A stretch of DNA of 24,915 nt from positions 1 to 24,915 of the IMG/VR virus record IMGVR_UViG_3300012363_000074; one strand, 5' to 3'. A program made the translations under genes and the position numbers. The first letter of the stretch is position 1, and each line of letters starts with the position of its first letter. The notes beneath the pieces were generated by a model. That model made no database searches. It was not told where the DNA came from and was given only the letters and a program-made list of their open reading frames with translations. This document shows positions 6,311 through 23,158 of this stretch, piece after piece. The DNA comes from a virus.

Positions 6311-8106
6311 TGCCACAGGTCCCCGGTTTAGTCCCTGACCAAACTCCCTCTCTTGGCGGCAGCCCTGATGTTAACTTGGCTGTGCCGGTTGATGCCTTTG
6401 GCGGTGCGGTAGGTCACGCCCTCTCCGGTCTTGGCCATGACATCGAAGGTGCCTCAGACAAGATCTGGGCGCAAGCGATGAATATGCAGAACCTCCAGAA
6501 TGAAACGGAGGCCAAGTCTGCTGACGCCGATTACATGATGAAGGCGGGGATGCTTCACGCGCAGTTCAACGCGAAGGAAGGAAACCAAGCTTCGCCTGAG
6601 GCCTTACAGGCGCACATCCAAGAACTCCAAGACCTTCGGGTAAAGACCCGTGGTGGCCTTTCCAACCCTATGGCTCAGAAGCTCTTCGATGGCTCCTCCC
6701 TTTCGTTTATGGGCCGGACCATATTCAATGCCGCCGGTCATGCCGCTCAGCAAACCAAAGTCGCCGCAAACAACGCCTCCACTGCTCGGGTACAGGCCAC
6801 ACAGGAAGCAATCTCTGCCTCGCCCGCTGATGACCTGACCTTCCTGCGTGGTAAGCGGGCTATCGAGAGCGAGGTTGAATCCCAAGGCCGGAACTCTGGT
6901 TGGTCTCCTGAGCAAACTGAAGAAACCTCAAAGCATGTAGTGTCCGATACCATTGCAAAACGTGCCACCACTTTGGCCAAGACTGATCTATTCGGGGCCC
7001 AAACGCTGTATGATCAAGGGGTAAAATCCAAAGCCCTCCTGCCCCAGGATGCAGACAAAGTCTCAAACACACTTCAAGTCCAGTTCCGTAATCAAGGCTC
7101 ACGGATCATTTCCGATACTGTGCTTGGCGACAGGCGTAGTGGTGATGAAGAGAATATTCCGGCACAGGACTACATCGACCGTGCGATGAAGATGGTTGAT
7201 ACCGACCCACGATTCAAATCCGCCGCAGCTGCCGACCCTCTATTCAAAGACTTTGTGCGTGAGAAGATCACTTCCCAATACAATCGCCAACGAGCAGTTG
7301 AAACTGACGCTGATAATATGAACGTCCGGACCATCGGCCAAGCCATGATGAAGGCCAATCAAGAAGGCCTGCGTCCTTCTACTGTAGAACAACTCCTTGC
7401 GGTTGACCCTGCCGTAGGCCCGGTCTGGGATGAAATCTCACGCAACCCCAAGCTCCAGATGAGTTTCCTCAAGACCCTTGAACACAACGCTACCGCGCCA
7501 CATATTGCCCCATCCCCCGAGAACCTGGCCCTACATCATGCCGCAATTGATCAGGCCAACACCGGCTCTCAGGAACAACAAGCCGAGTTCATGTCCCATG
7601 ATTGGGCCAACGAAACCAAGATGACCTACGCTCAGCGAAGTCAACTCTTGGACTTGCAGAGCCGAAAGCTGAAGGCGGGTGAAGCCAATATCACCGCGGA
7701 TCCTCGGGTTGGTCGGGCATTAGGAATCCTCGACCAAGAGATGTTCAACGCTGGTATTACAAAGACCGGCAGCCCTGACAACTATCACGCCCTTCGTGGG
7801 GCTCTCCAATCTGAATTGATTCAGTATCAAAGTGATAACAAGAAAATGCCAAAGCCCGAGGAAATCCTCGAGATGGGCAAGAATCTCATGAGATCCCAGA
7901 CCATCAAAGGTGCGGGGTGGTTCGGGTTTGACGCCAACACTCCGGTGTATCAAATCCCAATTACCGATGAAGACAAAGCCCCAATCGTCAAAGACTACAC
8001 CGCGAAGTTTGGCAAGCCTCCAGGTGATGCCATGATTGAACGTATCGTTCGTGCTCAACACTACAAACAATTCTATGGTGGTTCCGTCAAGAAGGGCAGT
8101 GAATGA
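6310..8106 (+). CDS. Internal virion protein C-like (T7 gp15-like)
   Basis: A 598-aa, almost entirely helical protein rich in Ala, Gln, Asp and Lys, in the position and general size class of T7 gp15 (747 aa), the periplasmic tube component of the ejectosome. The N-terminal 40 residues are Pro/Gly-rich (PQVPGLVPDQTPSLGGSPDV), followed by long helices with many charged residues. No enzyme motif or membrane segment seen. I choose the ATG at 6310 (TGATG overlap, AGGAG 10 nt upstream); a TTG at 6307 would add one residue. It is assigned largely by synteny between gp14- and gp16-like genes. Confidence 0.8.
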   Translation: MPQVPGLVPDQTPSLGGSPDVNLAVPVDAFGGAVGHALSGLGHDIEGASDKIWAQAMNMQNLQNETEAKSADADYMMKAGMLHAQFNAKEGNQASPEALQAHIQELQDLRVKTRGGLSNPMAQKLFDGSSLSFMGRTIFNAAGHAAQQTKVAANNASTARVQATQEAISASPADDLTFLRGKRAIESEVESQGRNSGWSPEQTEETSKHVVSDTIAKRATTLAKTDLFGAQTLYDQGVKSKALLPQDADKVSNTLQVQFRNQGSRIISDTVLGDRRSGDEENIPAQDYIDRAMKMVDTDPRFKSAAAADPLFKDFVREKITSQYNRQRAVETDADNMNVRTIGQAMMKANQEGLRPSTVEQLLAVDPAVGPVWDEISRNPKLQMSFLKTLEHNATAPHIAPSPENLALHHAAIDQANTGSQEQQAEFMSHDWANETKMTYAQRSQLLDLQSRKLKAGEANITADPRVGRALGILDQEMFNAGITKTGSPDNYHALRGALQSELIQYQSDNKKMPKPEEILEMGKNLMRSQTIKGAGWFGFDANTPVYQIPITDEDKAPIVKDYTAKFGKPPGDAMIERIVRAQHYKQFYGGSVKKGSE

Positions 8107-11100
8107 GTGCGGTCGAAGACTATTTCGAAGACTCACAGCTTGAAGCCAAGCAGGCTAATTACATCTCTCAGGATGACAATCCTGATGAGGCCTCAGAGGC
8201 TATAGAACTCTCAGATAGCACTGGTGTTCCTGCTGCGGCAATCCACAGCAATCTTGAGGATTTTAAGCGTCAGCATAAGCTTGCCCTCGGCAACGCCATT
8301 ATCAATGATAACCAGTATATTCAAGAATACCTAAACTCTCATCCCCTTGCGGCAAGTGTCTCTCAGGATGACCTTGGTCAGCTTGATGTAGCTTCACAAT
8401 CCATGTCCAACATTGGAGGGAAGACAGGACTCCAAAAGTGGCTGGATGACGATTCCATCTCTCAATCCTTCCAAAGGGGTTTCGGCGACCAGCCCTTTGG
8501 GCAGATGTTATATCAAAACCCAATAGAAGCCCAAAGGAAACATGATATTGATTGGGCCTTAAGTAATCCGCTTGTTGCCAGCACACTCGGTGCTGCATCA
8601 ATGCCCATCGAAGCCCTTTCTCGTGTAACTGGCGGCATGCTGCGTATGGGCTTCGATGGCATGTCAGCGATCTTCGGAGAAAGCGCCGCTCGGGACCTCA
8701 CGGCGATGGCCGAACTGGCCATGATGCGGGGGGACATCGGCGTTAAGTCCGCAGGAGGTGGAGCCTCGGGTCCTCTGGCCCGGATGGAACAGAACACGAA
8801 GCTGTTCAAAGACCTCCACAACGCCCTTCAGATCGCTGATCACTACACTGAAGGCCCATATAGAGGACCATCCTTAGGCCCATTACAGCGTGAGCCTTCA
8901 GCGCCAATCTCTGAAGGTGAACCCCCTCCAGGTGTCCACCCCCTCATCGACACCGCTAAAGTAGAACAGGCCAAAGCCGATGGAAAAGCCCTCAAGGATG
9001 CCCTTTCCGAATCCGCAAAGTCCGCCACCCGCGACCGTAGTGCAGATTACTACTCAAGATTTGCACGAATTAATGAAGCTGTGGGTGATAGAGAAATTGG
9101 GATTGACGCCGAAGCAGTGCGAAAGCTTTACGGCGATAAAGTCCCCGAGGTTGGCGATAATATCCTTGGCTGGGTTCCTGATCTTGCAGGGAAGCTGGCA
9201 GCTGCTGAAGGCATTGGTGGTGATATCCGTGTGCCTCTGGCTGATTATCTCGCTAGGGTAGATCCGGATGTAGCGAAGGAGTTGCATGATCATCTGAGGC
9301 TTCGCGACGGAGGGCTTACGGTAGAAGAGACCCGTGGGCTTCAGTCGAAGGAAGTCATCGCCGATCCGCTCCAACTCGTCCGCGGAGTTGGAGGGCTTGA
9401 GCCACAATTCTCCCTCGGAGATCGTAAGGTCACCATTCAGCGGATGGGAGAAGAGCCGGGCGCAGCCAAGGGACCCTTTGGTCGCGAAGCGGGCTTTCAT
9501 GATTTCGATCTTCTAGACGAAAGCGGGAAGAAGATCGGCTTTATGAACCTAAGCGAAGCCAAAGGAGGGAAGCAGATCTACGTCGAGATGATTCAAGCAG
9601 GCAAGACCGATAAGATGTACGACCCGAACTTCCTTGGGCCTGGGATCATCCGTGATCTTCGAAGACAGATCAAAGCTGAGTTTCCTCAAGCTGAGACCAT
9701 TACCGGCCATCGCGTTAGCGGCGCACGGGAAAAGGCCGGGGTGGAAATGACTGCGGCTATGCCAGTCATCAAGCTCTCACAGGAGACTGAAGGCTGGGGG
9801 CATGTAGATGCTTCACCGAGCTTGCGAGAACTCTTCGCGGAGATTGGAGGTCAATCTATCGACCAGACATACTCTACTTTCCACTACGGCCCGGAACTTG
9901 AGCAGCATAAGGTTCAGTTAGACGCCGCGATCCGTGATGAGCTTGCTCGGATCACTCCGAAGCAGGCACAGGTCTTCACCCCGGATCAGATCTCTGCCAT
10001 TCCTGAACGCCCTGGCTTTGCCCGTCGTGGGTTTCACCAACAGTTCAAGGAACAGGACCCTTGGATTGTCGTTGCTCTTGATAGCCCAAACGCAATGGAC
10101 GTAGCCCGACACGAGGCGGTTCATCATCTACGACAGCAAGGGTTCTTCACCGAAGGGGAGTGGTCTACACTTGAACGGGCCTCGCGGCAGAATGATTGGA
10201 CCAATCTTCACAATATCGAAGCTCGTTACAAGGAGTTCCCTGAAGAGGTTAAGTTAGAAGAGTCCATCGCCGAGGCGTACCGTACTTGGAAAGGCGCGAC
10301 TGATAAGAAGGCGTACCCTCCTGGGATCAACGCTATATTCCAAAAGCTCCAAGACTTCTTCGAAGCGCTGCGCCTACGCGTGAAGGAGATCACAGGGAAG
10401 GATCTCTCGTGGGATGAGATCTTCCAGAAGGTTGATACCGGAGAGGTCGGCTCCCGTGAAGGCAATGCGCCACTTAAGGAAGGGGCGTTTCGGCCTCAGG
10501 CCATGGACGAACCCATTGAAGGGATCTTCGATAAAGGCAAAGCCATGGGCGTCACCGAAGCCCACATGAACCGGATGCTCAATCTGATCGCGAAGCGCAA
10601 CGCCGAAGACCTCGCGAAGGCTACCGCTAGGGCCGAGAAGCAACAGAAGCGTTATCAAACCGCGGAGTGGAAACAACGCCGAACTGACATCCGGGACGAA
10701 GTCCGTGAACAGCTTGCTTCACGCCCGGACTTAGCCACTGACGAACTCTTCGCCAAAGGCGGGATCAAGCTTCACCCCGATTTCCTGAGTGAAGAACAAA
10801 AGGCCTCTCTCCCCAAAGATTACATCCAAAAGAAAGATGGAGTTAACCCTGATGTCCTTGCACCTTACTTCGGGTACACTTCTGGTGACGCCCTTGTCGA
10901 ACGTCTTGGTATGCTTACCACCGACCGTAAATCAGCTGGTATGTCTCAACGAGACTACTTTAACCGCCTCGTCGATGTTGAGACTGACCGCAGACTCAAC
11001 GCAGAATTTGGGGACCTTGGACAGAGCATTATGGATGCGGCTAAAGAGCAGGCCTATTCGGAAACTGCGGTCAACCAGATCCACGAAGAGACCTTAGCCT

Positions 11101-13955
11101 ACGCCCTTGCGGCTGGGGTGAAACCGAAGTTCACCAAGGAAGACGTCACCGCGATGGTGAAAGGTCAATTCGACAAAACTCCCATAGGCCAAATCAACTC
11201 CGACCGCTTAATTCAAACCTCAGGCAAGCTCGAACGTAAGGCTGCTGAGGCTGGGTCGAAGGGTGATTGGGTCGAGGCCTATCGGATTTATCAGCAGAAG
11301 CAATACGCTGTCGTTGCCACGAAGATGGCTATTGAGTATGAGAAGCTTCAGACCCAACTCGATCGCACCGCTAAGACCTTCCGCAATCGTGAAGTCGGGA
11401 GTGTTGAACAGCCGTACACCAATTGGGTCCATGACCTCCTGGCCCGTGTGGGTATGGGCAGCAAAGAGTTTCTTCGGGGTGACCTCATAGACCGTATTGG
11501 TCGTCAGCCTCAAGACAATCTGAAGGACTTCGTTCAAGCCAAAGAGGCTGAATGGATGGGCAACCGAACCCTGCCGATCGCTGACATCTTCACCGCTCCT
11601 GCCTTTCAAATCAAGCTCAAGGACCTTCCTTATGCAGACTTTAAAGAGTTCAAAAACGCTATCGACCTTTTGGTAAAGGCCGGGCGGGATGAGAAGAAGA
11701 TCTATAGTGAAGGCGGGGATGCTGATCGAGCACAAACCATTGGCGAGATGCGTGAGAAGCTAAAGACCTTCCCACAGCAATTGCTTCCTGATGAGCGGAA
11801 TTGGCTTCAGGAAAAAGCGCAGCAGCCAAAGAAGTTCGTCGCGGGCCTGACCGCCATTCCAACTCTACTCCGGCGTTGGGAACGTTACGACCCACGAGGG
11901 ATCTTCAGCCGTTATATAACCTACCCTATGCGCGAAGCAGACAACACTCACAGCACCCTTCAACGGGAAGTATCCAAGTCCTTAAAGGAAGTAGGCCCAA
12001 TCAAAGACTCCGAGAAACTAGTCGACTCTCCCTTCAACGATCCGAAGACCCGTACTGAGGAGAACCCAGATGGCACTCCATGGAACGGTTTCATGCGGAA
12101 GCACGTGCTAGGAATGCTGGCACATGCCGGTAACGCCAGCAATTGGCGGGTGCTTGCACAGGGCTATGGCGCCGACCCTGTAGCGTTGATGAAGTGGCTG
12201 GAGGCACACACCACCCCTGAGGACTGGGCTCAAGCACAGAAGCGTGGGGATCTAATCTTCAAACAATTGATCAAGAAGTCCGATGGAGTCTACGAACGCA
12301 CTGAAGGGGTACCTGTGGAGAAGATTCCCCTCGAGCCCATCACCAATGTCCACGGCAACTTCGCCGGTTGGTACCACCCTCTTGACGCGGATCCGATCCG
12401 GAAGGAAGTATGGACCAAGGACGAAAATGGTCAATGGTCCCGAAACACAGTTGGACGGCGTGATAGTGTCTTAGACAAGTATGGTAAATCCTACGCCACC
12501 ACTGCCAACGGCTACACCAAGAAACGCTCAGGCGCGGTGTACCCCTTGGACCTCGACATCACTGCGATGAATGGAACCATCAACCAGATGATTCAAGATA
12601 TCGCCTATCGAGAGCCCCTGCTAGAGATCCAGAAGATCTTCAAGAACGAAGCCTTCCGGAATGAAATCGATAACCACTACGGGGTCCACTACAAAGATCT
12701 CCTCGACCCCTGGCTTCAGCGTATGGCAGGTCAAACCTCCATCCCTAGCGCTACTTGGAAATGGGCGGGAGAGTGGAGTGAGTATTTGAGGCAGAATGTG
12801 ATCTCCACGTACATTGGGGGTAACATTTACACTGCCCTCAAGCATGGGCCTACGGCACTTGTTATGTCTTCGCGGGTGGTTGGAGCAAGAGAGTTCCTAC
12901 CTCAGTTTGGCAAGCAACTAGTTGAGCGCCTAGCGGGAGACCCCTTACGGAAAGCGATGGAATTGGTAGGGGCACAGAACTACGCCGAGGCCGTTAAGGC
13001 ACTCTATGCTCAAAGCCCTGAACTTGGTCTAACAATGTCCGAGTTCGCAATGAAATATGGCGAATCTCTTCAACGTCGTGAGCGGCATTGGCAGGATACC
13101 ATTGCCGGGGAGACCAAAGAACTGAAAGGTGAAAGTACCCTTCGGGAGAAGATCATTCAAAAGGGTTCCTGGTTGGTGGCTCAATCAGACATGCTCTCGG
13201 CAAAGCCCACGTGGGTCGCGGAGTTCAACAAACGTCAACGGGAGGGCCTGAGCTTTGGGGAATCCGTGAACCTCGCCGATGATGCAGTCACCCGAGCCCA
13301 CGGCACAACTGGTCGTGCCGACATTCCAGAATTAGTCGCGGGTGGTGGACCCGTTCACGGCTGGCTTACCTCAGTCTACGGCTTCATGGGCACCCGGATG
13401 CAGCGCATGATTGAGATCGGTCACCAACTAAATGACATCTATGATCTTGGAAAAGAGAAGGAACTCAATGAAGCCTTTAAGCGAGCGCCGAAGCTCCTTG
13501 GAGACCTGATGACCTTCGCCGTGTGGCCGATCATTGTAGAAGAAGCTGTGGTAGGGCTTGGCACCGAAGATCGCCAAACTGTTCTTCAACGGCTGGGAGG
13601 TGGCATAACTTTAGGAATGTCTAGTTCAGTGCTTTATCTTCGTGATTTTATTCACGGTCTCACTTCAGGCCACGAACCTGGAGTTGGGTTGTTGTCTTCA
13701 GCCGGGCATGATGCGGCCACCGCCGTTAAAGACCTGATGAAGGGCAAAGAAGCCTTTAGCAAACAACACGCAGGGAAGACCGTTGCCGATATTCTAACGC
13801 TATTGGGGGAAACTAAAGGCATTTCCCCGAAGGTTGTCGGCAACGCCGCCCGGTTCGGTATCGATCTTGTAAACAAACAAACCCATCCCCGCTCCGCTTC
13901 TGAAGTCTTCCGTGGTGTCACCCGCGGCATCACCAAACTGAGGGTAGAGAAATGA
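8103..13955 (+). CDS. Giant internal virion/ejection protein (gp16-like position) with HEXXH peptidase-like site
   Basis: A 1950-aa protein in the place of T7 gp16 (1318 aa). It probably enters the cell with the DNA as a polyvalent ejected protein. Residues about 441-547 look like a GNAT-type alpha/beta domain (GPGIIRDLRRQIKAEFPQAE, then GHRVSGARE). Residues 670-675 read HEAVHH inside a hydrophobic helix, followed at about 719-724 by EESIAE, an arrangement resembling the zinc-peptidase-like domains of large polyvalent phage proteins. A charged coiled coil lies near 820-870. The rest is long helical sequence. I see no lytic transglycosylase motif like the one at the start of T7 gp16. ATGA overlaps link it to both neighbours. 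Enzymatic activity is inference from motifs. Confidence 0.85.
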   Translation: MSAVEDYFEDSQLEAKQANYISQDDNPDEASEAIELSDSTGVPAAAIHSNLEDFKRQHKLALGNAIINDNQYIQEYLNSHPLAASVSQDDLGQLDVASQSMSNIGGKTGLQKWLDDDSISQSFQRGFGDQPFGQMLYQNPIEAQRKHDIDWALSNPLVASTLGAASMPIEALSRVTGGMLRMGFDGMSAIFGESAARDLTAMAELAMMRGDIGVKSAGGGASGPLARMEQNTKLFKDLHNALQIADHYTEGPYRGPSLGPLQREPSAPISEGEPPPGVHPLIDTAKVEQAKADGKALKDALSESAKSATRDRSADYYSRFARINEAVGDREIGIDAEAVRKLYGDKVPEVGDNILGWVPDLAGKLAAAEGIGGDIRVPLADYLARVDPDVAKELHDHLRLRDGGLTVEETRGLQSKEVIADPLQLVRGVGGLEPQFSLGDRKVTIQRMGEEPGAAKGPFGREAGFHDFDLLDESGKKIGFMNLSEAKGGKQIYVEMIQAGKTDKMYDPNFLGPGIIRDLRRQIKAEFPQAETITGHRVSGAREKAGVEMTAAMPVIKLSQETEGWGHVDASPSLRELFAEIGGQSIDQTYSTFHYGPELEQHKVQLDAAIRDELARITPKQAQVFTPDQISAIPERPGFARRGFHQQFKEQDPWIVVALDSPNAMDVARHEAVHHLRQQGFFTEGEWSTLERASRQNDWTNLHNIEARYKEFPEEVKLEESIAEAYRTWKGATDKKAYPPGINAIFQKLQDFFEALRLRVKEITGKDLSWDEIFQKVDTGEVGSREGNAPLKEGAFRPQAMDEPIEGIFDKGKAMGVTEAHMNRMLNLIAKRNAEDLAKATARAEKQQKRYQTAEWKQRRTDIRDEVREQLASRPDLATDELFAKGGIKLHPDFLSEEQKASLPKDYIQKKDGVNPDVLAPYFGYTSGDALVERLGMLTTDRKSAGMSQRDYFNRLVDVETDRRLNAEFGDLGQSIMDAAKEQAYSETAVNQIHEETLAYALAAGVKPKFTKEDVTAMVKGQFDKTPIGQINSDRLIQTSGKLERKAAEAGSKGDWVEAYRIYQQKQYAVVATKMAIEYEKLQTQLDRTAKTFRNREVGSVEQPYTNWVHDLLARVGMGSKEFLRGDLIDRIGRQPQDNLKDFVQAKEAEWMGNRTLPIADIFTAPAFQIKLKDLPYADFKEFKNAIDLLVKAGRDEKKIYSEGGDADRAQTIGEMREKLKTFPQQLLPDERNWLQEKAQQPKKFVAGLTAIPTLLRRWERYDPRGIFSRYITYPMREADNTHSTLQREVSKSLKEVGPIKDSEKLVDSPFNDPKTRTEENPDGTPWNGFMRKHVLGMLAHAGNASNWRVLAQGYGADPVALMKWLEAHTTPEDWAQAQKRGDLIFKQLIKKSDGVYERTEGVPVEKIPLEPITNVHGNFAGWYHPLDADPIRKEVWTKDENGQWSRNTVGRRDSVLDKYGKSYATTANGYTKKRSGAVYPLDLDITAMNGTINQMIQDIAYREPLLEIQKIFKNEAFRNEIDNHYGVHYKDLLDPWLQRMAGQTSIPSATWKWAGEWSEYLRQNVISTYIGGNIYTALKHGPTALVMSSRVVGAREFLPQFGKQLVERLAGDPLRKAMELVGAQNYAEAVKALYAQSPELGLTMSEFAMKYGESLQRRERHWQDTIAGETKELKGESTLREKIIQKGSWLVAQSDMLSAKPTWVAEFNKRQREGLSFGESVNLADDAVTRAHGTTGRADIPELVAGGGPVHGWLTSVYGFMGTRMQRMIEIGHQLNDIYDLGKEKELNEAFKRAPKLLGDLMTFAVWPIIVEEAVVGLGTEDRQTVLQRLGGGITLGMSSSVLYLRDFIHGLTSGHEPGVGLLSSAGHDAATAVKDLMKGKEAFSKQHAGKTVADILTLLGETKGISPKVVGNAARFGIDLVNKQTHPRSASEVFRGVTRGITKLRVEK

Positions 13956-15570: not shown

Positions 15571-16835
15571 ATCAAACTCCCATCCTCATCCACATCTGGA
15601 ACCTCGGCCTTGAAGAATCTCTGTCCGGTGCGGAAGTCCTGTTTCACTACTTTAAGCCTTCCCCCCATTATCATAATCTGCACCACTCTCTCTATAGAGT
15701 GAAGCGGCACCCGGTCCTTCGCGAAGTTGATAATCTTCCTTTCTATCACAGGACCCCGTACCTGCATCGTCAAGACATGGTGGAAGATCTCATCCATCGC
15801 TTTCGCATCCGCGTTCCCCGCACCGGCCTTGAAGATATCCGGCATTTGTCGCTCAGCTTCAGTCATCCAATTCATCGCTCGGTTGAAGTCGTCTCTGGTG
15901 AGCACCAATAAATCAGATCGTTCAATCGCTGACACCATACTGAGCTTGTATAGGTGGACTCGCCTGCGGGTTCCATAATGTATAAGTTTGGGGTGTGACA
16001 CAACTGGCGGTTCTCCAAGCTTCCTCCATGTATTAACGCAGTCTCTGTACTCTTCTGTAACCTTGAACTGGCCCACCAAGCCGCTGATAGATTTAAGATC
16101 ATGGATAAGATCAAGGCTGAGGGAAGTATCCACGCCTGGAGCGAAGTCGTCGCCGATCGTTCGTTCATCTGAAAACACCATTATGATTCGAGAGGTGAAA
16201 CCCTGTTCCCATGCCGTTTCAGGCATGTAATGGAGAAGGTTGGAGGGGGTTGTACCGACGATGAGATTGAGTTGGGGCCGTTTCATTTTGATATTAAGGT
16301 CGTTGTTTCTTCGGGTCTGGCCGTAGGCCTTAGGGTCATAGAAAGCGGACATCGTCCCGATGGCTTCTTCGTCATAGGCTTTCATAAAAGCTGAAAGCTC
16401 ATCGGCGGTTATGTACATAGAGTTGTATTCAATCGGCCCGTCCGGTTCTGGAAGCATAGCAGTGCGCTTGTTTTTGGTAAGCGCATCGATCATTGAAGAG
16501 GCCGACATAGAAGTAGGGGCCATCGGCGACCCTTCTAGTGTCATATAGTAATCGCGAGCGCGATAGATGGATCTTGTTTTGCCTGTGCCCGGATGCCCTA
16601 TAAGCGCGCAGTATAGATTCGCGTGGAGCTTATCCCCTCCGGAGACAACATAAACGCGTTGCTCCACCGTAGCCGCGACCATAGAAATCGCGGCCCATTT
16701 CCTAAAGATCCGCGGGCTCTCAAGGGCCTCAGTGCTTTCGATGAAGGAGTCTATGAACGACCGACACTTTCGGCTGGCGTCGCCGTTCGTCATGGCCTTC
16801 GTAGTCTTTGAGGCCGTCGGGATTCGCTTCAGCAT
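15567..16835 (-). CDS. P-loop ATPase, DUF3987-like (candidate replicative helicase/primase-type protein)
   Basis: About 422 aa. A clean Walker A, GHPGTGKT, lies some 79 residues after the start, after a segment resembling DUF3987 proteins (SFIESTEALESPRIFRKWAA). A likely Walker B region is MYITADELSAF, and NLIVGTTPSNLL fits a sensor region. These proteins occur beside phage polymerases and are thought to serve as helicase or primase-helicase partners; the role is inferred from neighbours. The start is uncertain: the ATG at 16835 has AAGGTG upstream at good spacing, while 16871 (no ribosome site) and 16793 (site too close) are alternatives. All of them overlap the end of the polymerase gene by 65-143 bases. 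Confidence 0.75.
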   Translation of the reverse strand: MLKRIPTASKTTKAMTNGDASRKCRSFIDSFIESTEALESPRIFRKWAAISMVAATVEQRVYVVSGGDKLHANLYCALIGHPGTGKTRSIYRARDYYMTLEGSPMAPTSMSASSMIDALTKNKRTAMLPEPDGPIEYNSMYITADELSAFMKAYDEEAIGTMSAFYDPKAYGQTRRNNDLNIKMKRPQLNLIVGTTPSNLLHYMPETAWEQGFTSRIIMVFSDERTIGDDFAPGVDTSLSLDLIHDLKSISGLVGQFKVTEEYRDCVNTWRKLGEPPVVSHPKLIHYGTRRRVHLYKLSMVSAIERSDLLVLTRDDFNRAMNWMTEAERQMPDIFKAGAGNADAKAMDEIFHHVLTMQVRGPVIERKIINFAKDRVPLHSIERVVQIMIMGGRLKVVKQDFRTGQRFFKAEVPDVDEDGSLI

Positions 16836-18228
16836 TCCAGTCACCTTTGTTCCACCCTGTTTTGCAGTCATAGGGAATGCTTAGCGTACGGTCGTGCTGA
16901 AGCGGGAGTTCCTCCACGAGCATTTCTTGAAGCTTTGGAACAATGACATCTTCATCTTCTTCCTTATACATGAAAGTAAGGGCATCGTGATCTTGCATCA
17001 TTATGAGACAAGGGCGCTTGCGCCAGATATGGAGCATGGCACGGTTTACGATGTCGGCAAGTGATCCTTGAGGATTATATGCAATCGCTTCCCTGAGGGT
17101 AGCTGGATCATTCCTACGTCCAAAGAACCATCTTTTTCGTCCAGTAAGCGTTGTAAGCCACCCGCATTGTCGTAACTGGTTATCAGTCCAACTGTGCCAT
17201 CGAAGGTGGGCTGGGAATGCAGTGAAGTATTTGGGCTGAAATCCAATGACGACCGGCTCGGGGAGGTTGGTTTGCATGGCGAGGGTTTCGGATTGTCCTC
17301 CGTAGTTGCTTCCGTGTCCGAGCTTCTTGCACATGAAACGGTATGAGTAATGACGATAGAATGGCTGTTCAGCGATAGCTTTGTCTCTTCGAAGATCACC
17401 TGTCCAACCAAGTCCTGGCCAACATATTCTAGCAACAGCTGTGTGCACGTCCCCAGACTCGACGGCATCTAAATATCTCCAATCATCGAAGAGGTTTCCC
17501 TCGATGGCTCCGACGCAATAACTCTCTCCTGCCTTGGCGTCGAACTTGGCAAACTTCCATCCCCAATCACTGATGAAAACGCTTCTAAGGCTTTCCTCCA
17601 CGTTCTGTAGATTTCCGCCTGTGCCAAATTCCGAGTAGCTAGAGCTAAAGCGACCAGTATTTGTTCCTGAGATATTGTAGCTTGTTCTAATTCGTCCATC
17701 TGGATCGACTCCGGTTTTGAGGAAATCTATCTTCTTCTGAATCTCACGCATGGTTAGAAGGTGGTTTACGATAGGGCGGGCCACTAGGAAGATCTGCATC
17801 TTCTCAAGGGCCTTGTGGTCCGTGGTAGGGCGGCCTTGTTTGCGGATGGTGGGGATCCCGAGGTAGTCGAAGAAGAGCTTTTGGAGGTCGGGGTTGGAGC
17901 GCCAAGAGAAGGTTGGCATACCGACTCCATCGAGGACTATTTGCTCTAGTTGTCCTTCGAGTCGATCAATAACCTCATAGTACTCATCAATGACGTCTTG
18001 CCGCCTTGATTGATCCACCAAGATACCCCGCAGTTGCATTTCCAGAACGGGTCCTTGGAGAGCACGGCTGAAAGCATAAGTGGAAGATGTATGATCGTCC
18101 AGTTGTGGTAGGAGGACTTCCAAGATCTCGGCAGTGATACAGCAGTCGAGTCCATTGTAAACATCCTCTCGCTCCTGTTGGTTCTGAAGGTCTTCGGGAA
18201 GGGTGAGGTGGGTGCGGATCAGTTTCAT
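16729..18228 (-). CDS. DNA polymerase family A, polymerase chain (starts inside the exonuclease domain)
   Basis: A 499-aa chain that copies the phage DNA. The N-terminus has Exo III of the 3'-5' exonuclease (Y24-NGL-D28, then CCITAEI); Exo I and II are in the separate upstream protein. Polymerase motifs: TGRFSS and NLQN (residues 191-209); motif A D230 and E235 (FDAKAGES); motif B R297, K301, Y309-G310 (RFMCKKLGHGSNYGG), with His305 where E. coli Pol I has Phe762; motif C H414-D415 (QDHDAL). All catalytic acids are present. The ATG at 18228 overlaps the stop of the 52-aa gene (TAATG) and is preferred over the in-frame ATG at 18240. Its end overlaps the start of the DUF3987-like gene. Confidence 0.9.
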   Translation of the reverse strand: MKLIRTHLTLPEDLQNQQEREDVYNGLDCCITAEILEVLLPQLDDHTSSTYAFSRALQGPVLEMQLRGILVDQSRRQDVIDEYYEVIDRLEGQLEQIVLDGVGMPTFSWRSNPDLQKLFFDYLGIPTIRKQGRPTTDHKALEKMQIFLVARPIVNHLLTMREIQKKIDFLKTGVDPDGRIRTSYNISGTNTGRFSSSYSEFGTGGNLQNVEESLRSVFISDWGWKFAKFDAKAGESYCVGAIEGNLFDDWRYLDAVESGDVHTAVARICWPGLGWTGDLRRDKAIAEQPFYRHYSYRFMCKKLGHGSNYGGQSETLAMQTNLPEPVVIGFQPKYFTAFPAHLRWHSWTDNQLRQCGWLTTLTGRKRWFFGRRNDPATLREAIAYNPQGSLADIVNRAMLHIWRKRPCLIMMQDHDALTFMYKEEDEDVIVPKLQEMLVEELPLQHDRTLSIPYDCKTGWNKGDWNAEANPDGLKDYEGHDERRRQPKVSVVHRLLHRKH

Positions 18229-18386
18229 TAGGAAGACCATAACTTAACGCCGACATCCTGTAGTGCTAATAAGATTTCTGAGGCGAGTTCCTGTTGGCAG
18301 GTCTCATCCCACGCTGAGCAATCAAGCTCTGACTCCCGTATTACTTTTAATATAGCCTCTACAGCCTTTTCTATTTCTATTGTCAT
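18228..18386 (-). CDS. 52-aa gene between the two DNA polymerase parts
   Basis: A 52-aa acidic, probably helical protein (for example AVEAILKVIRES and ELASEILLALQDVG) with two cysteines and a central Trp. No family recognised. It lies in the same frame as the upstream UDG/exonuclease gene, separated by TGA TGA GTG. Its TAA overlaps the polymerase ATG as TAATG. The good coupling downstream and the coding-like composition support a real gene. The GTG at 18389 is an alternative start. It could be a subunit that helps join the split polymerase; that is speculation. Confidence 0.55.
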   Translation of the reverse strand: MTIEIEKAVEAILKVIRESELDCSAWDETCQQELASEILLALQDVGVKLWSS

Positions 18387-18392
18387 CACTCA

Positions 18393-19493
18393 TCACTCGT
18401 CTCTTTTAATCGTTTCAGTTCCCTTTCGCTCAGCCTTCCACGGTCCATGGTCGGTGTAGATGGAGCCGAGAAAGCCGAGTCCTTTAAGACTTTCCGGTTG
18501 TAAGGCGTGGTGAAGAAGCATTGTGTCGTGGACTGCTCCTTGCACTGCGATCCCTGTGGTCCTGAGGATGAAGGGGATGTCATACAATCCATTCTGGAAT
18601 AGCTTAGGGATTGATTGATCCTCAAGCACCTGACGTATAAGTTCCCAACATGATCGTTCAGCTTTTGCAGTCTCCCAATAACTACCGCTCTTCCTTCGGG
18701 AGTCATGGAACGGAATAACCAAAGCAAGGTCTGGTCTGGGAGCAAATCCAATGCGCGTAATTTGCTTCCTGCTTGTTTCAATATCAACCGAAAGGATCTT
18801 GCATCCACGGATGAACCGACGGATGAAGATGCGGATCTCAGTGAGCGACGGGTCTGTCCAGATGATACATGGAGGCCGCGAGACATTTGGGGTATCTTTC
18901 TCTTTAAGGATCTTTGATAGATCCGCTACAGTTGTGGGTCTGAGTTCCCATTGTCGGGTGACCGCAGAAGGGTGGTAAGTAAGAAGAAGCTTATAGCCAG
19001 CAACACAATGAGTACTAACGCAAGTAGTACCACGAAGTTTTGTAATGCCGGTACGGCCTCCCATAGCCCAAAGAGCAGAATTGCCCAGACAGACAATGAG
19101 ATTAGGGTCACAAGCAAGCACCTCATCACCAAGCCGGTCAAGCTCATGTTGAAATTCCTTCCGGACGTATTTGGATTTCTGCAGGATTGGATACCCAGCG
19201 ATGCCTTCGGCTTTGCCTCCGCAGAAGTAGAGAAGGTCATTGCCGGGCGGGTGTTGTTGAAAGACGTTCGTTCGATACAACTCAGGATGAAGGTCCCATA
19301 TCGCCGCAAGGGTCCATGGGTCCTTCGTCCGATAGTATTTGGAGAGATAGGATCGGTCTTCGGAAGTGAGGGTTATTACGCCTGCGTCGTTTAGCATACG
19401 GAGTAGCTCGGCGCCTGTTGCCCCTACGAAGCTCTTGCCGATCTTCTTCTCATTCTCGCCTTGGGCTTCGCCGATCAAGAAGATGGGTTTCAC
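18393..19493 (-). CDS. Uracil-DNA glycosylase-like domain fused to the N-terminal half of a polymerase 3'-5' exonuclease
   Basis: A 366-aa protein. Residues 1-195 are a UDG superfamily domain (family 4/5 style): GEAQG at 8-12 and FVGATG at 22-27, NVFQQHPPGN at 76-85, a CLGNSALWAMGG strand-loop at 135-146 and YHPSAV at 173-178. Residues about 210-360 are a DnaQ-like exonuclease half with Exo I D237-I-E239 and Exo II N301-xxx-D305 (QNGLYDIPF), ending in GSIYTDHGPWK. Exo III is missing here and sits in the polymerase chain downstream. The family 4 motif Pro (GEAPG) is Gln here, so glycosylase activity is uncertain. GTG start, overlapping the previous stop as GTGA. Confidence 0.85.
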   Translation of the reverse strand: MKPIFLIGEAQGENEKKIGKSFVGATGAELLRMLNDAGVITLTSEDRSYLSKYYRTKDPWTLAAIWDLHPELYRTNVFQQHPPGNDLLYFCGGKAEGIAGYPILQKSKYVRKEFQHELDRLGDEVLACDPNLIVCLGNSALWAMGGRTGITKLRGTTCVSTHCVAGYKLLLTYHPSAVTRQWELRPTTVADLSKILKEKDTPNVSRPPCIIWTDPSLTEIRIFIRRFIRGCKILSVDIETSRKQITRIGFAPRPDLALVIPFHDSRRKSGSYWETAKAERSCWELIRQVLEDQSIPKLFQNGLYDIPFILRTTGIAVQGAVHDTMLLHHALQPESLKGLGFLGSIYTDHGPWKAERKGTETIKRDE

Positions 19494-20848: not shown

Positions 20849-21010
20849 TCATGGCCATTGGATCTCCTTTTCTTTTTCTTTCTCGTATTTGGTAATCTCG
20901 TCCTTGAGAATTTCTTCGATGCGGAAAAAGCAGTCTGCTCCACTAGAGATTCGAGATAACGCCTCAAGGGCGATGGATAGGTTCTTGATTCGGAGTGTTG
21001 TATCACTCAC
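20849..21010 (-). CDS. 53-aa GTG-started charged helical protein
   Basis: A 53-aa protein: two short helices (LRIKNLSIALEALSRI and FFRIEEILKDEITKYEKEKE) ending in Glu/Lys repeats. The GTG start overlaps the TAG stop of the Sak4-like gene (TAGTG) and has GGAGAG about 5 nt upstream. No family recognised. After its TGA the same frame stays open for 18 more protein-like codons to TAA at 20792, so the C-terminus may be longer in relatives. Confidence 0.6.
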   Translation of the reverse strand: MSDTTLRIKNLSIALEALSRISSGADCFFRIEEILKDEITKYEKEKEKEIQWP

Positions 21011-21864
21011 TAAACTCTCCTCTGCATAACTACCGCCTTCGGTCTTACCTGTGGTGCGGCTGGCACAGGTGCTATCGCAGCGGGTTTGCCGCGAAGGGTT
21101 TGGAAGATCGTCGCGAGGCCATTTTCAGCAGGGATGGCCTTCTCTTTCATCTTCGATGGCATGGCGAGATCTATCATTACATCACTTTCAAGCTGTAAGG
21201 TTCGCTTCCCAGCAAGGTTCTTCAGCCTGATGTAAACAGGAAAGTACTGTGGGATCTTCGGTGATAGCTTCTGCCCTACCCCTTGCGGGAAGATCTTCGA
21301 GGTCCCATCTGCTTGATCCATGAGCTGGCCGTGGCAGATGACGATGACGTTGGTCCGGAACGTATCTGAAGTAAGATCAGCAAGGATCATCCCTACGGCA
21401 TCTTGAGCGTTCTTGTAAACCATCCAGCCATGAGCTTTAGCTCCCGCCAAGAACACGTGATGATCATAGACCACATCACAGAGCCGCGATAGCGAGTCGA
21501 TGACAAGGATACAATCTTCCCCCCACCCTGCCGGGTCTCCAAGATCAACATCACCATACTTCCAGTTATTAAGCATCTTTATGGCATTCATGGCGGCCTT
21601 GGGCGCGCCATCAATCACTACTCCATGAATGCCCATCTTATAATCGTCCCGAAGGGTACGGAACTCTACGTTGTCGAGTTGCTTAGGGCATTCCGTTAAG
21701 AGCTTCTGCTTGAGCGCATCGAGCAGGTTGTCAAAGTCCAGAATACGGAGCTTATACCCTGCCTTAACAAGGGACCAAAGCGCGGTGGTCTTACCGGACT
21801 TGGAGTCACCAAGGAATAGAACCTTGGTGAAAAGGTTGGATTGATGATCAGCTAGGCTGGGCAA
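21010..21864 (-). CDS. RecA-like P-loop ATPase, Sak4-type recombinase candidate
   Basis: A 284-aa protein. Walker A is at residues 19-26 (GDSKSGKT), preceded by the strand TKVLFL. A Walker B-like strand ILVIDSLS lies near residue 120, and a DVIVICH-like strand (NVIVICHGQLMD) resembles RecA-fold sensor strands. The C-terminal 40 residues are Ala/Pro/basic and probably disordered. Sak4-like proteins are short RecA-fold ATPases that promote single-strand annealing with phage SSB partners. The start is TTG with GGAGG 6 nt upstream; no ATG precedes Walker A, so TTG is well supported. It overlaps the preceding gene by 17 bases. Confidence 0.75.
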   Translation of the reverse strand: MPSLADHQSNLFTKVLFLGDSKSGKTTALWSLVKAGYKLRILDFDNLLDALKQKLLTECPKQLDNVEFRTLRDDYKMGIHGVVIDGAPKAAMNAIKMLNNWKYGDVDLGDPAGWGEDCILVIDSLSRLCDVVYDHHVFLAGAKAHGWMVYKNAQDAVGMILADLTSDTFRTNVIVICHGQLMDQADGTSKIFPQGVGQKLSPKIPQYFPVYIRLKNLAGKRTLQLESDVMIDLAMPSKMKEKAIPAENGLATIFQTLRGKPAAIAPVPAAPQVRPKAVVMQRRV

Positions 21865-22039
21865 GGAGCACCTCCGTGTAATAGGTTAAAAGATCCCCAT
21901 CTTTGATGTCATAAAGATGCATGTGATTCAGTTGAATGGTCATGGTGGTAGACCCACCCATTGAGACCTTTATGTGATTGGGTCCGCGCTCCACCACACG
22001 GAACTTTCCTAAGGGAAGGATAGCGCGGAGTTCATTCAT
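21848..22039 (-). CDS. Small beta-rich hypothetical protein
   Basis: A 63-aa protein with alternating hydrophobic strands (FRVVERGPNHIKVSM, TMTIQLNHMHLYDI, GDLLTYYTEVLL), likely a small beta barrel. Function unknown. I prefer the ATG at 22039 (AGGA 9 nt upstream, 8-base overlap with the previous gene); the ATG at 22048 would add three residues. The strand plan and the final G-D-x-hydrophobic run resemble those of the preceding 63-aa protein, so the two could be distant paralogues. Confidence 0.6.
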   Translation of the reverse strand: MNELRAILPLGKFRVVERGPNHIKVSMGGSTTMTIQLNHMHLYDIKDGDLLTYYTEVLLAQPS

Positions 22040-22223
22040 GTCCTTCATTCCTAAATATAATCCTAACTCTATCTCCTACGGCCCAAGTAGGCACCGCGTG
22101 AAATAAAATCGGAACTTTGTAACAATCAAACCAAACGTTGAATCCATCCTCCCAAGGTTCAATCTTTGTTATAAAAGTAGTGTCTCCGTGTTCAGTCCTT
22201 AACGGGCCTTGAGTGGATCCCAT
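22032..22223 (-). CDS. Small beta-rich hypothetical protein
   Basis: A 63-aa protein, mostly beta (TTFITKIEPWEDGFNVWFDC, then VPILFHAVPTWAVGDRVRII). No family recognised. The ATG has GGAGG 7 nt upstream. Its first 25 bases overlap, in another frame, the open C-terminal tail of the PD-(D/E)XK nuclease reading frame, which fits the tight packing used elsewhere in this arm. Confidence 0.6.
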   Translation of the reverse strand: MGSTQGPLRTEHGDTTFITKIEPWEDGFNVWFDCYKVPILFHAVPTWAVGDRVRIIFRNEGHE

Positions 22224-22348
22224 CTCTCGTCCTCCGGTAGTTGTATGAAATCACTCTTCAAGTAATGTTCTCTCACGGAAGGGTTCTTAGAGCAGATATC
22301 GCGAAAGCGGCACCCCCCATACATTCCACAAGACTGGTCATTCTGAGG
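22199..22348 (-). other. In-frame Fe-S cysteine tail of the nuclease, separated from it by a TGA codon
   Basis: Reading on in the nuclease frame after TGA at 22351-22349 gives 49 open codons to TAA at 22201-22199. They include C-x5-C-x5-C (SCGMYGGCRFRDIC; codons 277, 283, 289 of the combined frame), then SKNPSVREHYLKSDF and a WDPL ending. This fits the C-terminal Fe-S cysteines of Cas4/AddB-like nucleases. No other gene covers most of this interval. The interrupted codon is where Trp (TGG) would be expected from memory of relatives. Confidence 0.7.
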
Positions 22349-23158
22349 TCAATGATCGGCGTTCGCGAACGCCTCAGCCGCGTTGAGCCAATATTCCAAA
22401 TCTACAAGCCATTCGTCGATGAGGTCGTCAGAGCGATACGTGAACCCCCGAGCGAAGCGGGTGGTGAATTTCTCAAGGCCAATCTGAGCCCCTTCAATCA
22501 CAATCCCCTTCACCTCCATATCCATCACTACCTTCCCGGCGAAGGTGTAGAGGGTCATTTGGTTGTTGGGGGCGAAGCCTTTGAACCAGTAATCCCCAAT
22601 GGTGCTTTGAGAGGTCTTGTGATCCACAACGAAGACATTATCGTTTATCGTAACGACACGATCAAGATGACCACAGAGAAGATACTGAACGTCGGAATAC
22701 GCAGTGGGGCCAAAGTCGAGTTCGAACTTGAATGACAGTTCCACCGCTGGCCGACCATTCTCTAAGATGATGGTTTTCGCGGCATCCTCACGATAGTTAT
22801 CGAAATAATCTACCACCAACTGAAGCAAGGTCTTGGGGTTCTTGTATGTCCCAGCCTTGGTGGAAGTGTCTGGGTCCCAGTCTTTGATCCTCACCAGCAG
22901 TTGGCGCAATGTCTCGCGCAGTGCGTCTTCGAACTGAAGCCCGTTGGCGCGGAAGTTTTCGAAGTCTTGGATCGCGGAGTGGTACTCCCCGCCGAAGCGA
23001 AGGTGGATGTTTTCATCCTTCGCGACGTAGCCGTCGATCATGGTGTATTTGTAGTATTGAGGGCATTGTTTTAGGGCGCCGAGGCAGGTTGAGTCCCACG
23101 CTATGCGAAGGTGGGTTCCGGGCAGGTATTGGGAAGAGGGCACGGCTACTATGTTCAT
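22349..23158 (-). CDS. PD-(D/E)XK nuclease, RecB/Cas4-like, truncated by in-frame TGA
   Basis: The 269-aa reading frame holds the nuclease core: C32 in LKQCPQYYKY (first Fe-S cysteine), H60 in GGEYHSAIQ, then GHLDRV with D166, and the D179-H-K181 pair (VVDHKTSQ), followed by a Q-x4-Y element (NNQMTLYTFAG). Such enzymes cut DNA ends and work in phage recombination or replication. The family normally has three more cysteines at the C-terminus. Here they lie downstream in the same frame but behind the TGA at 22351-22349. If that stop is absolute, the product lacks the cluster. The ATG lies directly after the TAG stop of the upstream gene. Confidence 0.8.
   Translation of the reverse strand: MNIVAVPSSQYLPGTHLRIAWDSTCLGALKQCPQYYKYTMIDGYVAKDENIHLRFGGEYHSAIQDFENFRANGLQFEDALRETLRQLLVRIKDWDPDTSTKAGTYKNPKTLLQLVVDYFDNYREDAAKTIILENGRPAVELSFKFELDFGPTAYSDVQYLLCGHLDRVVTINDNVFVVDHKTSQSTIGDYWFKGFAPNNQMTLYTFAGKVVMDMEVKGIVIEGAQIGLEKFTTRFARGFTYRSDDLIDEWLVDLEYWLNAAEAFANADH

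Follow-up and report, generated by a model that had tools for sequence, protein, structure and literature searches.

A TGA private to one phage contig separates an iron-staple nuclease gene from its predicted Fe-S tail

Introduction

In the iron-staple domain of AddB and AdnAB (PDB 4cej, 9np6), one N-terminal cysteine is followed by the nuclease motifs and then by three C-terminal cysteines. The Cas4 family (Sso0001, PDB 4ic1; ACE1, PDB 9iab; phage solo-Cas4) comprises stand-alone Fe-S-type PD-(D/E)XK nucleases. In Sso0001 Cas4, every single Cys-to-Ala change yielded insoluble protein (PMC3466216), and cysteine changes in Bad gave a labile protein that was lost during purification (PMC7430649).

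Here we describe a phage nuclease gene of this type in a 24,915-base stretch of DNA from a metagenomic contig, hereafter the window. The gene family shares the cysteine order of AddB/AdnAB, whereas the nuclease of this contig stands alone without a helicase, is only about 15% identical to these proteins, and has its tail removed by an in-frame TGA. Like Cas4 it is a stand-alone enzyme, but its nearest neighbors in sequence are phage hypothetical proteins rather than CRISPR Cas4, and a mycobacteriophage 'Cas4 exonuclease' is a weak match (26% identity over 58%). A full-length homologue, Kuura_035 (WCD44113.1) of Caulobacter phage Kuura, is 32% identical over 96% and carries the tail cysteines; unlike the contig gene, it has no internal stop, and a Tyr stands at the position of W270. 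An annotated 'putative helicase' lies three genes downstream of Kuura_035.

Results

The nuclease frame occupies positions 23158-22199 on the minus strand and consists of 269 codons, a TGA at 22351-22349 (codon 270, context CAT-TGA-CCT), and 49 further open codons that end at a TAA at 22201-22199, the terminator of the full-length frame as read from the sequence. The truncated open reading frame (22349-23158, minus strand) encodes 269 amino acids, including C32, the catalytic D166, D179-x-K181, and Q200/Y204. The tail on the 3′ side of the stop (22202-22348, minus strand), which reads PQNDQSCGMYGGCRFRDICSKNPSVREHYLKSDFIQLPEDERWDPLKAR, contains C277, C283, and C289 in a C-x5-C-x5-C arrangement and ends in WDPLKAR. 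Under the standard code, the product of this contig thus ends at residue 269, before C277, and its set of four cysteines is incomplete. The end of the tail is overlapped by a small gene of 63 amino acids (22032-22223, minus strand; ATG at 22223), which two relatives carry in intact form at 92-95% identity. The preliminary description of this DNA had placed the TGA between the nuclease and its cysteine tail and had reported the overlap with the next gene; its coordinates and motifs proved exact, and the ATG was located.

For searching and modeling only, the nuclease was treated as one protein read through the TGA. This protein matched Pfam PDDEXK_1 over residues 28-289 (1.5e-13, 51.7 bits against a cutoff of 22) and also matched PHROG exonuclease families. 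Besides the profile match, it has the D...D-x-K and Q-xxx-Y motifs of the PD-(D/E)XK superfamily, and D166, D179, K181, Q200, and Y204 were invariant among the aligned relatives. Sequence searches returned no solved structure, and structural relatives were found by fold comparison instead. An AlphaFold2 model built on 26 aligned family members (mean pLDDT 88.3, pTM 0.84) resembled the AddB/AdnAB iron-staple domain (Z 16-18), with the AdnAB nuclease domain (Z 17.7, 237 residues, 3.4 Å) and AddAB (Z 16.1) as best matches, followed by ACE1 (Z 15.0) and Cas4/Dna2 (Z 10-11); the Eubacterium rectale exonuclease 3l0a, RecE, and EXO5 were also matched, below AdnAB/AddAB. Most of the matched nucleases with a four-cysteine staple aligned to about residue 290-298 of the model. 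Those that lack a cluster mostly ended earlier, namely RecB at 256, lambda Exo at 269, and all but one entry of MGME1 at about 262-268, and the TGA therefore lies near the point where the shared core gives way to the cluster-binding tail. C277, C283, and C289 were present in 90 of 90 relatives, and C32 in all 79 that have a residue aligned there. Profile, predicted fold, and cysteines together identify the full-length product as an AddB/Cas4-type iron-staple PD-(D/E)XK nuclease, predicted to bind an Fe-S cluster through the tail encoded by the 49 codons, in line with the Cas4/RecB-like nuclease and Fe-S tail proposed earlier.

Wherever the match to a relative extended to the stop, homology continued beyond it. 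In eight close relatives (identity of 72-96% in the best segment), codon 270 is always TGG and the frame reads through, and in each of them the tail aligns to residue 315-319, so the open stretch of 49 codons is not a product of chance. Within the tail, C277, G281, G282, C283, C289, W313, and P315 were invariant in the 26-row alignment; the apparent invariance of W270 there is biased, as 18 of the rows had been retrieved with a pattern in which this codon had to be TGR. A scan with a degenerate pattern likewise gave 39 stretches that all had TGG, a biased tally because the pattern admitted only TGG or TGA. A fairer count came from a profile-based scan that used another pattern, placed in the GGC motif, and was supplemented with GenBank phages; TTC alternatives emerged from it. 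In the resulting 90 distinct relatives (132 aligned loci), codon 270 was TGG in 84, TTC in four, TAC in one, and CCC in one. The aligned frame was free of stops in all of them, at codon 270 as at every other position, although the collections may omit records very near the window, and a sister contig that shares the TGA may therefore exist. A conserved stop was rejected on the absence of the TGA from all relatives found. No nucleotide matches were found among GenBank phages, and a scan of bacterial genomes added three distant relatives, in metagenome-assembled genomes. The preliminary description had suggested looking for Trp at codon 270 in homologues and had regarded the intact form as ancestral. 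Trp is found in nearly all relatives, none ends at the TGA, tail homology is present, and the stop-free frame with its tail cysteines is common to all, which bears out that reading. As a separate observation, in close relatives (L005 and L009) the loop before the GHLD motif of the nuclease (query residues about 155-160) is lengthened by insertions of about 12 to 35 residues.

Comparison of the tail with the four nearest relatives (L002, L003, L005, and L006) gave dN of 0.017-0.115 and dS of 0.45-2.7, and on these rates the tail is under strong purifying selection in the family. Changes private to the window amounted to two nonsynonymous and two synonymous in the 269 codons of the head, and one of each in the 49 codons of the tail. 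Decay beyond the stop is not evident from these small counts, which would indicate only that the stop is recent or not real. A second private change in the tail (22217-22220) has a double effect, replacing Asn with Asp at codon 314 of the nuclease and changing codon 2 of the overlapping small gene.

Among the window genes compared with four related contigs (G001, G002, G004, and G007), that of the nuclease alone is truncated, and its homologues run 50 codons further in all four. Other gene ends differ by 1-7 codons from those of the relatives, which is ordinary, and larger values belong to poorly conserved or alternative-frame open reading frames or to contig ends. An earlier tblastn screen with the relatives' open reading frames gave many stops, and the non-nuclease cases among those listed look like alternative-frame or antisense frames. 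A damaged or error-rich contig was rejected, as no other gene is truncated. About 15 other genes of the window terminate at TGA, many at the same position as in relatives, and TGA therefore does not serve as a sense codon in the window. Since the most similar contig measures 49.5 kb, the window probably represents part of a larger genome.

Near the nuclease gene lies a gene for a Sak4-like/AAA_24 ATPase (21010-21864, minus strand), the likely recombination partner of the nuclease; this neighbor suggests a role in DNA end resection paired with Sak4. No cas1 or cas2 was found beside the nuclease, where the neighbors tested were the Sak4-like ATPase, a DNA polymerase A, a primase-like protein, and small phage open reading frames. 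At 18393-19493 (minus strand), an N-terminal uracil-DNA-glycosylase-like domain and a C-terminal DNA_pol_A 3′-5′ exonuclease domain are joined in one protein, while the family A polymerase domain is encoded apart from it at 16729-18240 (minus strand), with a variable small open reading frame in between. This split is also found in G001, G002, and G004, and is therefore not a mutation of this contig. Elsewhere in the window, an open reading frame of 1950 amino acids (8103-13955, plus strand) matches phrog_9880, a family of unknown function; it is 91% identical to G002 over the C-terminal 1155 residues but only 64% identical to G001 over the whole length, a pattern that suggests mosaic exchange.

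Discussion

We are confident that the stop, which interrupts an ordinary iron-staple nuclease of a phage, is an isolated private change and not a device. It would have arisen by one base change, from TGG to TGA at Trp codon 270, in an AddB/AdnAB/Cas4/Dna2-like nuclease encoded near a Sak4-like recombinase. The preliminary description had left three options, namely a recent nonsense mutation, a sequencing error, and UGA readthrough giving two nuclease forms, of which the first two survive. We see roughly even chances that the mutation is real, that is, a recent nonsense allele. Slightly short of even, in our judgment, is an error of consensus or assembly, or a minor variant caught in the consensus, in which case the real phage would encode the full nuclease of 319 amino acids. 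A change confined to this contig, in a gene that all relatives keep intact, a tail without decay, and an intact rest of the contig all fit such an error, but a contig with no other truncation in 24.9 kb is not error-rich, and with seven private substitutions in the gene anyway, one more real change would be unremarkable.

Programmed readthrough or recoding is unsupported and very unlikely, even when both are taken together. Readthrough as a regulatory device, yielding one nuclease with the Fe-S tail and one that lacks it, would make use of the open and conserved frame after the TGA and of the C that follows it. A C after UGA is usually considered a weak termination context in E. coli. A literature search on UGA readthrough context, with limited terms, found nothing. 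Readthrough is nevertheless very unlikely, and this part of the preliminary description did not stand: the stop is conserved in none of the relatives despite the constrained extension, contrary to what is expected of a readthrough gene; TGA is a usual terminator in the window; and no suppressor tRNA was found in the window, a fragment that covers part of the phage and yielded no tRNA, or in four related contigs, which yielded one tRNA-Met only. The RNA downstream of the TGA folds slightly worse than shuffled sequences (z +1.14), on which a structured recoding signal was rejected. Recoding, in which UGA would stand for Trp or selenocysteine across the whole phage or at codon 270, is barely conceivable: Trp in the relatives fits the former amino acid, but UGA closes intact genes where their homologues end, a tRNA to decode it was not found, and selenocysteine would be expected in place of Cys, not Trp, and with a strong hairpin after the stop, which is absent.

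Should the base be real, ribosomes would stop just past the last core helix, and the product would retain all nuclease motifs and C32 but lose the three tail cysteines, leaving no cluster. Loss of three of the four ligands together with the last 50 residues should destabilize the nuclease, since cysteine mutants of Sso0001 Cas4 and Bad are insoluble or labile. By this analogy the truncated protein is probably unstable, and the change would be a recent loss-of-function allele. An active core of 269 residues is conceivable, as the alignments of RecB, lambda Exo, and most MGME1 entries to the model reach no further than about residue 256-269. It is highly improbable, however, that the allele is real and maintained in the population, with leaky UGA decoding giving a mixture of a cluster-less core of RecB/lambda Exo extent and the Fe-S form.

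Whether a single recent mutation or an artifact of sequencing, the stop at codon 270 involves no new mechanism and has little significance beyond annotation. Gene callers will report a nuclease of 269 amino acids without its Fe-S tail, followed by a gap of 49 codons, whereas the family is full length. An erroneous stop would serve as a reminder to compare singleton stops in metagenomic contigs with relatives. If the nonsense allele is real, the nuclease can be lost, at least temporarily, in this phage.
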